Source: Candidatus Limnocylindrus primus (GTDB lineage: Bacteria > Chloroflexota > Limnocylindria > Limnocylindrales > Limnocylindraceae). Taken from it: DNA of 35,156 nt. Shown one piece after another: positions 2,562 to 15,286 of the stretch; within the stretch, counting starts at the first letter, position 1; each line of letters opens with the position of its first letter. The position numbers were made by a program, and so were the translations under genes. The notes under the pieces were generated by a model. The model was not told where the DNA came from and searched no databases. It saw only the letters and a list, made by a program, of their open reading frames with translations. The stretch is taken from positions 1-35,156 of the forward strand of contig QWRJ01000007.1 of NCBI GenBank assembly GCA_003670475.1, written 5' to 3'.

Positions 2562-4376
2562 ATGACAAAACAAGGGGGAACCCCAGACGGAGCTGAGCGC
2601 GCCGCCGCGCTCCCCCGCGACCCACTCCTCGGCACCCCGCTTCGTCACGTGGTGCGCGACGCCATCGGCCGCGCTCTCCGCCGAGCGATCGCCTCAGGGG
2701 CGCTCCCTGGTCCAGAGGATGCGGTGGCGCTCGATGCGCTCATCCAGGGGATTGAAGTTGAAGTTCCCGCAAGTAGCGACCATGGCGACTACGCATCAAA
2801 CGTTGCGATGAAATCGAGCAAGCTGCTGAAGCGCGCGCCAGCGCAGATCGCAGCGGCGATCGTTGCAGAGTTGGCTGCGGAGGCGGGAGAGAGGATCCAC
2901 GGAGGTGATGGCGCACTCGGACCGATCGCGAGCGCCAGCGTTGCCGGCCCTGGCTTCCTCAACGTACGCCTCCGCGCCGGACTACTCGCAGATCTCCTTG
3001 ACGCCATGATTGCTGCGCCAAACGCATGGGGACACCTTAGCCGCGACGCGAAGGAGAAACCGCTGCGGGTCAACGTGGAGTTTGTCTCTGCAAATCCAAC
3101 CGGACCGCTCACCGTTGGCAATGCGCGCGGCGCCTTTGTTGGCGATCTCCTCTCGCGCGTCCTTGAGGCGGCGGGGCAAGAGGTGACGCGCGAGTATTAC
3201 TTCAACGACTTTGGCGAGCAGGTGCGCCGACTCGGCGAAAGTGTGATCGCCCTGCGTGATGGAAAAGCGGTAGCTGAAGATGGGTACAAGGGTGACTACG
3301 TTGCCGAACTTGCTGGAGTAATCCCTAACGACATTGATGTGCGTGCTGCAGCGGCGCGTTCGTCGGAGACCACGAATCCTGATGATGACGAGGTTGCGGT
3401 GATTGGCAAGTGGGCATCAGAGCGCATTCGTCTTGGGATTGAGGCGTCACTTGCGGCACTCGGTGTGGAGTTTGATGTCTGGCGATCAGAAGGTTCGCTC
3501 TATACCGAAAGATTTGTTGATCGCGCCATTGAGAAGTTGCGCGCCGCCGGATGGCTGGAGGAGCGCGATGGTGCGCTCTGGTTCAAGAGCACAGCGTTTG
3601 GTGATGACAAAGATCGGGTCATCAGGAAGTCAACCGGCGCATATACCTACTTCGGCTCTGACATTGGATACGTTGAAGAGAAGTTTGGCCGGGGATTCGA
3701 CCACCTTGTCTACGTCTGGGGCGCAGACCATCACGGTACCGTCGCACGCGTGCGCAACGCTGGCGAGGCGCTCGGCTACGCAAAAGAGCACATGGAGATG
3801 CTGCTCGTCGCCTGGGTGCGCTTTGTACGTGATGGTGTTGAGATGAGCATGTCAAAGCGCGCTGGAACATTCGTCACACTTGACGAGTTGCTTGAAGAGA
3901 TTGGCGTAGATTCGGCGCGCTGGTACTTCGCTTCGCGTAGTGCAAGCACTGCGATTGACTTTGACATCAAAGCTGCCACCGCGCGTAACAGCGAGAACCC
4001 TGTCTACTACGCGCAGTACGCGCATGCGCGTATGCAGTCAATCCTGCGCAAGGGTGAAGCCGAAGGGATGAAAGCATCAGAGAACATCGGCGATCTCCTT
4101 AACGACGAGGCCACGCCAGATGCAAAGCTTGCGCGCGTGATTGTGCGCCTCCCAGAAGTTGTTGAAGATGCCGCCGCCCATCACGAGACGCAGGGGGTCA
4201 CCACCTATGCAACCGAACTCGCCACCGCCTTCTCCGCCTTCTACCGCGACGCGAAGGTGGTGGACGCAGGCGCGGCGAAGCTCTCCTCCCAGCGCCTCCG
4301 CCTTGTGGCGGCGGCGGCGACGAGCCTCGCCGCCGCCCTCCGCCTCCTCGGAATCTCCGCCCCCGCCGAGATGTAG
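2562..4376 (+). CDS. argS: Arginyl-tRNA synthetase
   Basis: FVSANPTGPLTVGNARGAFVGDLL, REYYFNDFGEQ, YVWGADHHGT, MSKRAGTFVTL. Start at 2562 (MTKQGG) rather than 2277, with TACGAT 6 nt upstream. Confidence 0.93.
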   Translation: MTKQGGTPDGAERAAALPRDPLLGTPLRHVVRDAIGRALRRAIASGALPGPEDAVALDALIQGIEVEVPASSDHGDYASNVAMKSSKLLKRAPAQIAAAIVAELAAEAGERIHGGDGALGPIASASVAGPGFLNVRLRAGLLADLLDAMIAAPNAWGHLSRDAKEKPLRVNVEFVSANPTGPLTVGNARGAFVGDLLSRVLEAAGQEVTREYYFNDFGEQVRRLGESVIALRDGKAVAEDGYKGDYVAELAGVIPNDIDVRAAAARSSETTNPDDDEVAVIGKWASERIRLGIEASLAALGVEFDVWRSEGSLYTERFVDRAIEKLRAAGWLEERDGALWFKSTAFGDDKDRVIRKSTGAYTYFGSDIGYVEEKFGRGFDHLVYVWGADHHGTVARVRNAGEALGYAKEHMEMLLVAWVRFVRDGVEMSMSKRAGTFVTLDELLEEIGVDSARWYFASRSASTAIDFDIKAATARNSENPVYYAQYAHARMQSILRKGEAEGMKASENIGDLLNDEATPDAKLARVIVRLPEVVEDAAAHHETQGVTTYATELATAFSAFYRDAKVVDAGAAKLSSQRLRLVAAAATSLAAALRLLGISAPAEM

Positions 4377-12428: not shown

Positions 12429-12746
12429 TTAAGCGTGGCTGAGGAGGCCGCCAGGCACTTCAGTCGTGGAGGCGAACGGAAGGGTGCGCCACGCGTCGTC
12501 GAAGGCCTCGATGCTCCAGGCGCCACTGCGGCGCGAGAAGGAGAGGACGAGGGCGGCGTCTTCGGTCTCCAGCTCCCAGAGGGTGCGTGGGCCGCTCTCG
12601 GCTCGATAGGCGCCGTACTCACGACGAAGGGCGAGCACCTTGGTCACCTTGCGGACGATCCCCTCAAAGGCGACCGCCGTGGGGGCCCCTGTGCGCCAGT
12701 GTGCGGTGACCTTCACCGCGACCGAAGCGATCTGCTGCATTGCCAT
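12429..12746 (-). CDS. Small hypothetical protein, possibly DUF6504-like
   Basis: WRTGAPTAVAFEGIVRKVTKVLALRR...LWELETEDAALVLSFSRRSGAWSIEAFDD; SD GGAGG; shares an intergenic region containing two LexA boxes. Confidence 0.5.
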   Translation of the reverse strand: MAMQQIASVAVKVTAHWRTGAPTAVAFEGIVRKVTKVLALRREYGAYRAESGPRTLWELETEDAALVLSFSRRSGAWSIEAFDDAWRTLPFASTTEVPGGLLSHA

Positions 12747-12801
12747 CTCGTACCTCCTCCCCCGTGGGGGCTACCCCCTTGACGGGGACTTCGTTTGACT
12801 A

Positions 12802-12813
12802 GAACATCTGTTC
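12802..12813. promoter_or_regulatory. LexA/SOS box 1 (GAACATCTGTTC)
   Basis: Matches the GAAC-N4-GTTC LexA operator; flanked by A/T giving AGAACA-TC-TGTTCT; abuts TTGACT at 12795-12800 on the plus strand. Confidence 0.85.
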
Positions 12814-12831
12814 TGCTTGGGTAGTCTCATA

Positions 12832-12843
12832 GAACATCTGTTC
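12832..12843. promoter_or_regulatory. LexA/SOS box 2 (GAACATCTGTTC)
   Basis: Identical second copy exactly 30 bp from box 1; next to TTGACA on the minus strand (12851-12846). Confidence 0.85.
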
Positions 12844-12851
12844 TCTGTCAA

Positions 12852-12907
12852 GGGGGAGTTTCAGGAGTGTGCGAGAATCCCCGCACCAGCGCGGGGGGCT
12901 CTCCCCC
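12852..12907 (+). promoter_or_regulatory. rplI 5' leader with nested hairpin
   Basis: GGGGGAG (12852-12858) pairs with CTCCCCC (12901-12907), enclosing CCCCGC-ACCAGC-GCGGGG (12879-12896). Confidence 0.5.
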
Positions 12908-12927
12908 GCCCCAGAAAGGAGCGCATC

Positions 12928-13374
12928 ATGAAGGTCATCCTCACCGCCAATGTCCCGAAGGTCGGCAAGGCCGGCGAGCTCAAGGAGGTCGCCGGGGGCT
13001 ACGCCCGGAACTTCCTGATCGCGAACGGTCTCGCCATCCCTGCCATCGGTGGGGCGGCCACCCGGGTCGCCGCCGAGATCGCGTCGCGCGCCTCAAAGGT
13101 TGACCGCGTCAAGCAGGAGTCAGAGGAGTACGCCAAGAAGATCAGCGCCACCGCCCTCACCATGGGGGTGAAGGTCGGCGAAGGCGGGAAGCTCTTCGGC
13201 TCCATCACCAACAAGGAGATCGCCGAAGCGCTCGAGCGCCGCGGCATCAACGTAGAGAAGCACCAAGTCCTACTCGATGAGCCGCTGAAGCAGCTCGGCA
13301 CCTACAAGGTGCAGGTCAAGGTTGCCGCACACCTCATCGCCGAGGTCACGGTCACCGTTGAGCCAAAGAGTTAA
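12928..13374 (+). CDS. rplI: 50S ribosomal protein L9
   Basis: MKVILTANVPKVGKAGELKEVAGGYARNFLIANGLAIPA; SD AAGGAG before ATG 12928. Confidence 0.95.
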   Translation: MKVILTANVPKVGKAGELKEVAGGYARNFLIANGLAIPAIGGAATRVAAEIASRASKVDRVKQESEEYAKKISATALTMGVKVGEGGKLFGSITNKEIAEALERRGINVEKHQVLLDEPLKQLGTYKVQVKVAAHLIAEVTVTVEPKS

Positions 13375-13386
13375 CAAGAGAAACGG

Positions 13387-14574
13387 CTGATCACAACGAA
13401 GAGCACCGCGCCGCGCAGCATCCTTCACGTTGACCTTGACGCCTTCTTCGCGTCGGTAGAGGTCCGCGACAATCCGAAACTGGCGGGGAAGCCAGTTGCA
13501 GTCGGATACAGCGAAGGGCAGCGCGGCGTAGTCTGCGCCGCAAGTTATGAGGCGCGCGCATTCGGCGTCCGTGCCGCCATCTCTACTCGACTCGCTCTCG
13601 CACGCTGTCCGCAACTGATCCTGGTCGAGCCGCGTCATGCGCGATACAGCGAAGCGTCAGATGAGGTGATGGAGCTGCTCGACGCATGGAGTCCAGTGAT
13701 TGAGCAGGTCTCGGTCGACGAAGCGTATCTCGATCTTGCTGGCACCACGCAACTCCACGGCGATGCAGATCGCGTTGCGCGCGGACTGAAGCGCGCGGTG
13801 AAAGAGAAGACAGGCTTAACAATCAGCGTTGGTGGTGCTGCGAGCAAACTTGTTGCCAAGATCGCATCTGGCGCATCAAAGCCGGATGGCCTGCTCATCG
13901 TTCCGCCAGACGAACAGGTTGCCTGGCTTGCGCCACGGCCAGTCGGTGAGATCCCGGGGATCGGCCCTGTTGCCCAGCGCACACTTCGCGAACTCGGCAT
14001 CACCACGTGCGGGCAACTCGCCGCCGCACCTGACGATCACCTGCTGCGCCGATTTGGCGCACATGGGCCCGACTTGAAGCTGCTCGCGATCGGCGAGGAT
14101 GAGAGCCCTGTTGATACGGGTGACGACCGCAAGTCGCTCGGTCGCGAGATGACACTCGATGACGACGTCGCCGACCCGCACGCACTTGAGACGCTGTTGC
14201 TCGGCCTCGTTGAGTCCGTCTCGCACTCACTGCGAAACGAACATCTGCTCGCGCGCACCGTCACGCTAAAGCTCAAGGACACCGAGTTTCAATCCTTTAC
14301 GCGCCAGGTGAAGCTGCCACAGCCGAGCGACCTAAGCGGGCCGATCTTTGAAGCGGCGCGTGCACTACTGAAGAAGGCGGCGCGCGGCGAGCCGTACCGA
14401 CTGATTGGCGTCTCGACCTCCGACTTCACGACTGACGAGCAGCTCCCACTCTTTGGCGGCGCGGCCTCAGCGCGTGAGCGCGCCATCACCAGCGCCGCCG
14501 ACAAGATGCGCGCCAAGTACGGCGACGATGCCGTCACACGCGCCCGCCTGATCGAGCCGGGCGAGGACGAGTAG
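13387..14574 (+). CDS. dinB: DNA polymerase IV (Y-family), non-canonical start (CTG proposed)
   Basis: ILHVDLDAFFASVEVRDNPKLAGKPVAVG...YSEASDEVMELLDAWSPVIEQVSVDEAYLDL; no in-frame ATG/GTG/TTG between the rplI TAA (13372-13374) and the catalytic N-terminus. Confidence 0.85.
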   Translation: MITTKSTAPRSILHVDLDAFFASVEVRDNPKLAGKPVAVGYSEGQRGVVCAASYEARAFGVRAAISTRLALARCPQLILVEPRHARYSEASDEVMELLDAWSPVIEQVSVDEAYLDLAGTTQLHGDADRVARGLKRAVKEKTGLTISVGGAASKLVAKIASGASKPDGLLIVPPDEQVAWLAPRPVGEIPGIGPVAQRTLRELGITTCGQLAAAPDDHLLRRFGAHGPDLKLLAIGEDESPVDTGDDRKSLGREMTLDDDVADPHALETLLLGLVESVSHSLRNEHLLARTVTLKLKDTEFQSFTRQVKLPQPSDLSGPIFEAARALLKKAARGEPYRLIGVSTSDFTTDEQLPLFGGAASARERAITSAADKMRAKYGDDAVTRARLIEPGEDE

Positions 14575-14603
14575 TAGGGGGGAGACAACTCCGTGCCAGC
14601 TAC

Positions 14604-14632
14604 TTGACAAGATTCCGAACAGCCGTTCTAAT
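14604..14632 (+). promoter_or_regulatory. lexA promoter with embedded LexA box
   Basis: TTGACA (14604-14609), 17-nt spacer, TCTAAT (14627-14632); LexA box GAACAGCCGTTC at 14617-14628. Confidence 0.85.
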
Positions 14633-14638
14633 GGGTGT

Positions 14639-15286
14639 ATGACGAAGCATGACCAGGACAGGAAGACGCGGATCCTCCAGGCGATCGCCGAGGGGAGCCG
14701 CCGTTCGGGGACGCCCCCTACCGTGCGAGAGATCGCCGACCTCGTGGGGCTCGCCGCACCGTCCGCCGTCCACCACCACCTTGAGACGCTTGAGCGTGAG
14801 GGGCTGATCCAGCGTGACTCGGGCCTCTCCCGATCCGTCCGCCTCACCGCCCGCGGCCGCTCCCTCCTTGAGATTGACGACGCGGTCGAGACGACCAACC
14901 TCCCCATGGCGGCGCGCGAGCTGGTCGTGGTGGGGCAGATCGCCGCCGGCGGGCCGATCGAGGCGTACGAGGAGCGATCGGAGTCTGTGGCGGTGCCAGA
15001 GTTTATGTCCACCGCAGACTCCTACCTACTGAAGATTCGCGGCGACTCCATGATCGACGCGCAGATTGCCGACGGCGACTACGTGGTGATTAAGCCGAGC
15101 AAGGTCGCGGCAGATGGGGACATCGTGGTCGCCCAGGTAGAAGAGAACGAGGTGACCCTGAAGCAGCTCTTCCGCGAGAGCGGTCGCGTGCGCCTCCAGC
15201 CGGCAAACAAGGCGTATGCGCCGATGTACTACCCAACGGTCAACGTGCAGGGCGTGCTCGTTGGCGTTCTCCGACGCGTTCACTAA
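14639..15286 (+). CDS. lexA: LexA repressor
   Basis: N-terminal wHTH (PPTVREIADLVGLAAPSAVHHHLETLEREGLI), AAG cleavage region (QIAAGGPI), GDSMID catalytic Ser, VTLKQLF catalytic Lys. Confidence 0.95.
   Translation: MTKHDQDRKTRILQAIAEGSRRSGTPPTVREIADLVGLAAPSAVHHHLETLEREGLIQRDSGLSRSVRLTARGRSLLEIDDAVETTNLPMAARELVVVGQIAAGGPIEAYEERSESVAVPEFMSTADSYLLKIRGDSMIDAQIADGDYVVIKPSKVAADGDIVVAQVEENEVTLKQLFRESGRVRLQPANKAYAPMYYPTVNVQGVLVGVLRRVH

Follow-up and report, generated by a model that had tools for sequence, protein, structure and literature searches.

The rplI–dinB junction

The window, a 35,156-nucleotide stretch of DNA from Candidatus Limnocylindrus primus, is a contig of a 977-kb, 70%-complete assembly (G000). 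It carries rplI, dinB, and lexA, along with three LexA boxes (Table 1). The rplI gene ends in ...GAG CCA AAG AGT TAA, and the same frame continues behind that stop as CAA GAG AAA CGG CTG ATC ACA ACG AAG AGC ACC GCG CCG, followed by CGC AGC ATC CTT CAC GTT GAC. Between the rplI stop and the Pol IV core at 13420, which specifies the catalytic HVDLD motif, the dinB frame contains no ATG, GTG, or TTG. The window codons thus bear out a preliminary description of this DNA, which had reported that dinB lies in frame behind the rplI TAA and possesses no such start. The same description held that the first canonical codon would delete the catalytic Asp. That loss is real, while the position given, 13663, is one codon too early: no canonical codon comes before GTG 13666, which is followed by ATG 13669. 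Specifically, the sole dinB call in an ATG/GTG/TTG-only list of open reading frames is a 302-aa ORF (13666–14574) that has neither the start of the IMS domain nor the catalytic Asp.

Table 1. Features of the window, with three further CTG-start candidates elsewhere in its genome
Feature	Location	Strand	Details
LexA box 1, GAACATCTGTTC	12802–12813	+	126 nt before the rplI ATG; position conserved in congeners
LexA box 2, GAACATCTGTTC	12832–12843	+	96 nt before the rplI ATG; position conserved in congeners
rplI, ribosomal protein L9	12928–13374	+	TIGR00158, E 1.9e-35; stop TAA 13372–13374
Spacer CAAGAGAAACGG, rplI stop to CTG	13375–13386	+	12 nt; purine-rich, without a good Shine–Dalgarno sequence
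Putative dinB start codon, CTG	13387–13389	+	CTG in 14/16 congener genomes with the junction
dinB, DNA polymerase IV	13387–14574	+	395 aa counted from CTG
LexA box before lexA, GAACAGCCGTTC	14617–14628	+	single box
lexA, SOS repressor	14639–15286	+	TIGR00498, E 5.3e-50
tgt	L157, 11286–12680	−	CTGA in 17/17 genomes; overlap with queA
Sensor histidine kinase gene	L135, 8543–10327	+	CTGA in 15/15 genomes; overlap with response regulator gene
LON-substrate-binding-domain protein gene	L162, 13768–14880	−	CTG in 16/16 genomes

The open dinB frame matches Pfam IMS (PF00817, 2.1e-46) and IMS_C (PF11799, 8.1e-28). The IMS match covers open-frame residues 19–165 and begins at profile position 1, so codons upstream of GTG 13666 are needed. 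NCBIfam Pol IV models likewise match, and Pol IV from the PDB aligns from residue 14. The acidic residues that mark DinB/Pol IV are present in HVDLD and SVDEAYLD, as is the IMS_C little finger. Within the genus, dinB dN/dS is 0.02–0.20, the pattern of purifying selection. On the strength of this low ratio, we regard the frame as functional and the window dinB as an intact Pol IV gene. The window assembly also contains a second, partial dinB at a contig end (C39, 5899–6240; L129), with a 77% identical C-terminus; no lexA was seen beside it by eye. Two dinB copies also occur in G012 and G001, reflecting either a paralogue or strain mixing.

The junction across the genus

We compared 18 congener genomes. 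The genus is uncultivated, and the named close relatives of the window genome, "Candidatus Aquidulcis" among them, are MAGs of freshwater Chloroflexi. The counts given for the junction refer to the 16 genomes in which it is assembled. CTG occupies the homologous place in 14 of them: G000, G016, G008, G017, G013, G009, G012 (in two copies), G018, G014, G002, G011, G006, G001, and G004. In a fifteenth, G005, GTG stands there instead, preceded by the Shine–Dalgarno sequence GGAGAG. The last, G010, has CTA within CTAA and keeps two ACG codons, and its dinB frame runs intact across two contigs. With no CTG and no canonical start at its junction, at least one member of the genus must use another start, perhaps ACG or CTA.

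The CTG is kept while its surroundings change. It lies 12 nt beyond the rplI stop only in G000 and in G016, the latter repeating, independently, the window's exact TAA-CAAGAGAAACGG-CTG. The distance is 28 nt in G008, G017, G013, and G009. In the other eight CTG genomes (G012, G018, G014, G002, G011, G006, G001, and G004) it is −4 nt: the rplI end GGC-TGA turns into a CTGA overlap. The codon following CTG is ATC, ATT, ACC, ACG, or GCC, depending on the species, and the reading frame of dinB relative to rplI also shifts.

The space available for initiation is small. An in-frame stop precedes the I/VLHVDLD core by 9–15 codons in G000, G016, G017, G013, G009, G012, G018, G011, and G006, and its type differs (TAA in G000/G016 and G017; TGA in G013/G009 and G012). 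None of these nine genomes has ATG, GTG, or TTG between that stop and the core. In the first six, initiation must therefore fall within this short stretch, which holds only CTG plus ATC/ATT/ACG near-cognates. No ATG, GTG, or TTG is present within the 44–50 codons before the core in G014, G002, G001, and G004. The sole CTG genome with a canonical codon upstream is G008 (TTG, 26 codons before ILHVD); we rejected this TTG as the start because an in-frame TAA intervenes in the close relative G017, making it unusable there. Among outgroup dinB loci, from the sister family and others, 80 of 84 have ATG, GTG, or TTG within 20 codons of the core. Sister-family loci without one in that interval are L019 and L040 (TTG at 26 codons) and L021 and L026 (ATG further up).

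A genome-wide screen provides a second line of evidence. We scored third-position mismatches upstream of the first ATG/GTG/TTG of each of 325 genes, comparing 670 kb of the window genome with 656 kb of G004 and 545 kb of G010. The dinB gene ranks first, with a score of 17.7 (over 58 codons, against G004), and the next score is 7.4. Since this is the strongest upstream coding signal of the 325 genes, the dinB frame upstream of the canonical codon is not a product of chance.

We are nearly certain that dinB needs a non-canonical start, and CTG is very probably that start. Initiation at CTG 13387 was among the options named in the preliminary description; its conservation in 14 of 16 congeners, with GTG in its place in the fifteenth, singles it out. 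An ordinary start combined with separated frames, which that description proposed to look for in relatives, is found in full only in G005 and the sister family; elsewhere the junction carries CTG, G010 apart.

Other readings of the junction

The alternative that fares best places initiation shortly after CTG, at one of the near-cognate codons ACG 13396 and ATC 13390, with CTG serving as an ordinary Leu codon. ACG does follow CTG by two to three codons in the CTG genomes, and it is also present in G010, where CTG is not. However, Thr codons near the start switch freely among ACA, ACC, and ACG, and the distance from CTG to ACG is not constant. The ATC option, put forward in the preliminary description, is not supported, since the codon after CTG varies from species to species. 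Moreover, G005 has GTG exactly where the others have CTG, and at the tgt and kinase genes (see below) it is CTG that is conserved rather than ACG. We consider a downstream near-cognate start unlikely.

A second possibility, also raised earlier, is readthrough of the rplI TAA to yield an L9–DinB fusion. The two genes do share one frame, with one TAA CAA between them, in G000 (the window species) and its close relative G016, and in no other genome. The frames differ in G008, G017, G013, G009, and every CTGA genome, and a further in-frame stop precedes CTG in G017, G013, G009, and G012. A fusion as the general mechanism is thus excluded, because outside G000 and G016 either the frames differ or another stop intervenes. 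Of the three stop codons, UAA is usually the one least prone to readthrough. The shared frame is a by-product of a spacer that in one sub-lineage measures 12 nt rather than 28, and readthrough is very improbable.

Other routes to dinB translation were considered and set aside. A −1 frameshift from rplI into dinB finds no canonical slippery heptamer at the CTGA junction (by eye) and is blocked by in-frame stops in G012, G009, G013, and G017. A leaderless dinB transcript would need its own promoter, yet a consensus promoter scan of 12700–14800 returned none, and the region before CTG varies. Nor does an altered initiator tRNA appear to be the cause: in G010, tRNA-fMet, read by eye, has the usual three G-C anticodon-stem pairs. 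IF3 genes are present.

The gene might instead be a pseudogene that has lost its start, with dinB untranslated or decaying, or yielding no more than a shortened protein initiated at GTG 13666. Genome reduction removes repair genes, Limnocylindraceae have lost most base-excision glycosylases (PMC13212565), and no dinB match exists in G015. Against decay stand the dN/dS range, the intact catalytic motifs, and the purifying selection upstream of GTG 13666 that the screen score reveals; this reading has scarcely any likelihood. Finally, although the sequences of the window genome and its named relatives were assembled from metagenomes, loss of an ordinary start by assembly or base-calling error, a check suggested in the preliminary description, has negligible probability, because the same CTG recurs at the homologous place, with different spacers and no conserved canonical start, in 14 genomes, including independent assemblies of other species and G016 with its identical junction. 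Translation of dinB from CTG, as an intact Pol IV gene and the second gene of an rplI–dinB unit, is the reading we judge probable.

LexA boxes upstream of rplI

Boxes of the form GAACNNNNGTTC occur three times in the window against 0.39 expected by chance. Two of them precede rplI, and twin boxes precede rplI in the congeners as well, mostly at −96/−97 and −119 to −127; the positions differ in G004 (−115/−145) and G010 (−81/−111). Given that the twin boxes are present genus-wide, rplI–dinB looks SOS-linked in this genus. In the sister family, box pairs are found downstream of dinB, probably before lexA. We suggest that in the present genus the rplI promoter probably brought dinB under SOS control, and that rplI, a ribosomal-protein gene, is possibly SOS-controlled. 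A divergent 105-aa ORF (12429–12746, − strand), which has a GGAGG-type Shine–Dalgarno sequence and no Pfam or NCBIfam match, shares the twin-box region. It may be an SOS gene, and the twin boxes may serve it as well as, or instead of, rplI.

Candidate CTG starts elsewhere in the genus

Inspection of the top of the screen and of earlier candidates revealed three further genes with a shared CTG: tgt, a sensor histidine kinase gene, and a gene encoding a LON-substrate-binding-domain protein (Table 1). Genus-wide alignment shows no conserved ATG, GTG, or TTG start for any of the three. The genes that overlap the first two, queA and a response regulator gene, were named from gene context and reading by eye. 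The LON-domain gene follows a short gene with what looks, again by eye, like an IscA/ErpA C-terminus. At tgt, a second NTG column (C, T, or A) lies four codons upstream and leaves the start there less certain than that of dinB; a Leu-Trp codon pair in queA can account for this column. A plain count of NTGA overstates CTGA, as CTGATG is an ordinary ATG start.

Most of the other high scorers in the screen are wrong-frame ORFs, with one run of N and one interrupted M16 peptidase gene. The N run lies inside a window-genome gene (L146, + strand, 3876–4365) and is either masked sequence or a scaffold gap. The M16 peptidase gene (L161, 3582–4550, − strand) appears interrupted by an in-frame TAG relative to G004 and G010, the result of a frameshift, a pseudogene, or an assembly error.

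The overlaps allow the C of CTGA to be examined, since this base doubles as the third position of the final codon in the upstream gene. In queA, the last codon ends in C in 16 of 16 species while the amino acid is R, S, P, H, or G; in the response regulator gene it is TCC, GCC, or ACC, with C in 15 of 15. By comparison, 2 of 128 fourfold sites are invariant in the last 250 codons of queA, and 2 of 86 comparable sites in the response regulator gene, ratios that are guides and not exact probabilities, as the species are related and the two loci were chosen for showing CTG. Because C is invariant although A, G, or T would each give a canonical start, CTG itself, and not merely any start, appears to be kept at the tgt and kinase loci. 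The test is weak at rplI, where 8 of 26 fourfold sites are invariant C among nine close sequences.

A possible role for a weak start codon

We propose that ribosomes ending rplI would reinitiate at CUG, directly within the CTGA overlap in eight genomes and, in the window clade, across 12 or 28 nt of spacer. Among coupled gene pairs in prokaryotes, the 4-nt overlap is the most frequent arrangement; reinitiation peaks where genes overlap and drops steeply by about 20 nt (PMC10666635). The 12-nt gap of the window and the 28-nt gap of its relatives are less favorable for reinitiation than the overlap. Coupling to ribosomal-protein translation, as suggested in the preliminary description, is plausible but clearer in the relatives than in the window itself; overall, we lean toward dinB initiation being coupled to rplI termination.

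CUG initiation complexes are less stable than those formed at AUG, GUG, or UUG (PMC11497404), so DinB output per round of rplI translation should be low. The notion is that the weak start would hold the ratio of DinB to L9 down. With the twin LexA boxes, the SOS response would probably raise rplI–dinB transcription while the weak start keeps Pol IV scarce. This low-dose rationale for the dinB start is tentative, a suggestion that we favor less than its opposite. At least three other genes of the genus would use this arrangement too, with CTG placed mostly in CTGA overlaps. It is a real possibility, though short of an even case, that CTG ranks beside ATG, GTG, and TTG as a fourth regular start codon of the genus, mainly in CTGA overlaps; that the selected C holds translation of the second gene low; and that the Pol IV dose is so set within a LexA-controlled ribosomal-protein operon. 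Alternatively, CTGA could have been fixed by drift as spacers contracted in a reduced genome; Limnocylindraceae have reduced genomes and short intergenic spacers (PMC13212565). Drift alone is disfavored at tgt and the kinase gene, where the invariant C argues for selection.

If CTG is used in this way, gene finders limited to ATG, GTG, and TTG would truncate or misplace such proteins, and standard ones probably cut the CTG-start proteins of this genus short; here, the casualty is the catalytic Asp of a mutagenic polymerase. The genus also offers two natural tests: whether bacteria rely on a poor start codon as a constant setting for the output of the second gene in a coupled pair, and how, in a streamlined lineage poor in repair genes (PMC13212565), an error-prone polymerase is kept in check.

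Relation to known systems

Neither CTG starts nor 4-nt overlaps are new in themselves. In ATGA overlaps and termination–reinitiation (Huber et al., PMC6728339, PMC10666635), the downstream start likewise lies inside the upstream stop. Those two papers name ATGA and TGATG, and CTGA is not found in them; here, the start is CTG, which makes the overlap CTGA. The pairs with ATGA-like geometry are rplI–dinB in eight congeners, queA–tgt, and response regulator–kinase. In the open-access literature searched, we found no report of the CTGA combination being kept in several operons of one genus, including that of an SOS-linked polymerase.

Non-AUG starts limit expression, as the AUU codons of infC and pcnB do in E. 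coli. Near-cognate CUG starts of Salmonella proteoforms were found by Ribo-RET (PMC11005335). In each of these examples, as here, a rare near-cognate start sits in a chromosomal gene; in contrast to them, no codon other than CTG is plausible as the main start of dinB, and this CTG is retained across the genus. In other prokaryotes, switches to CUG number 4 among about 69,000 reconstructed starts (PMC5622118). Against so rare an event, a CTG start kept genus-wide in several operons is unusual.

The protein itself is conventional: it has the same full IMS, HHH, and little-finger domains as other Y-family DinB/Pol IV proteins, and only its start codon and operon context are out of the ordinary. 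The dinB gene is LexA-controlled in other bacteria. Here too it stands beside lexA and would belong to the SOS regulon, with the difference that the boxes lie upstream of rplI, so that a ribosomal-protein gene would be controlled together with the polymerase.
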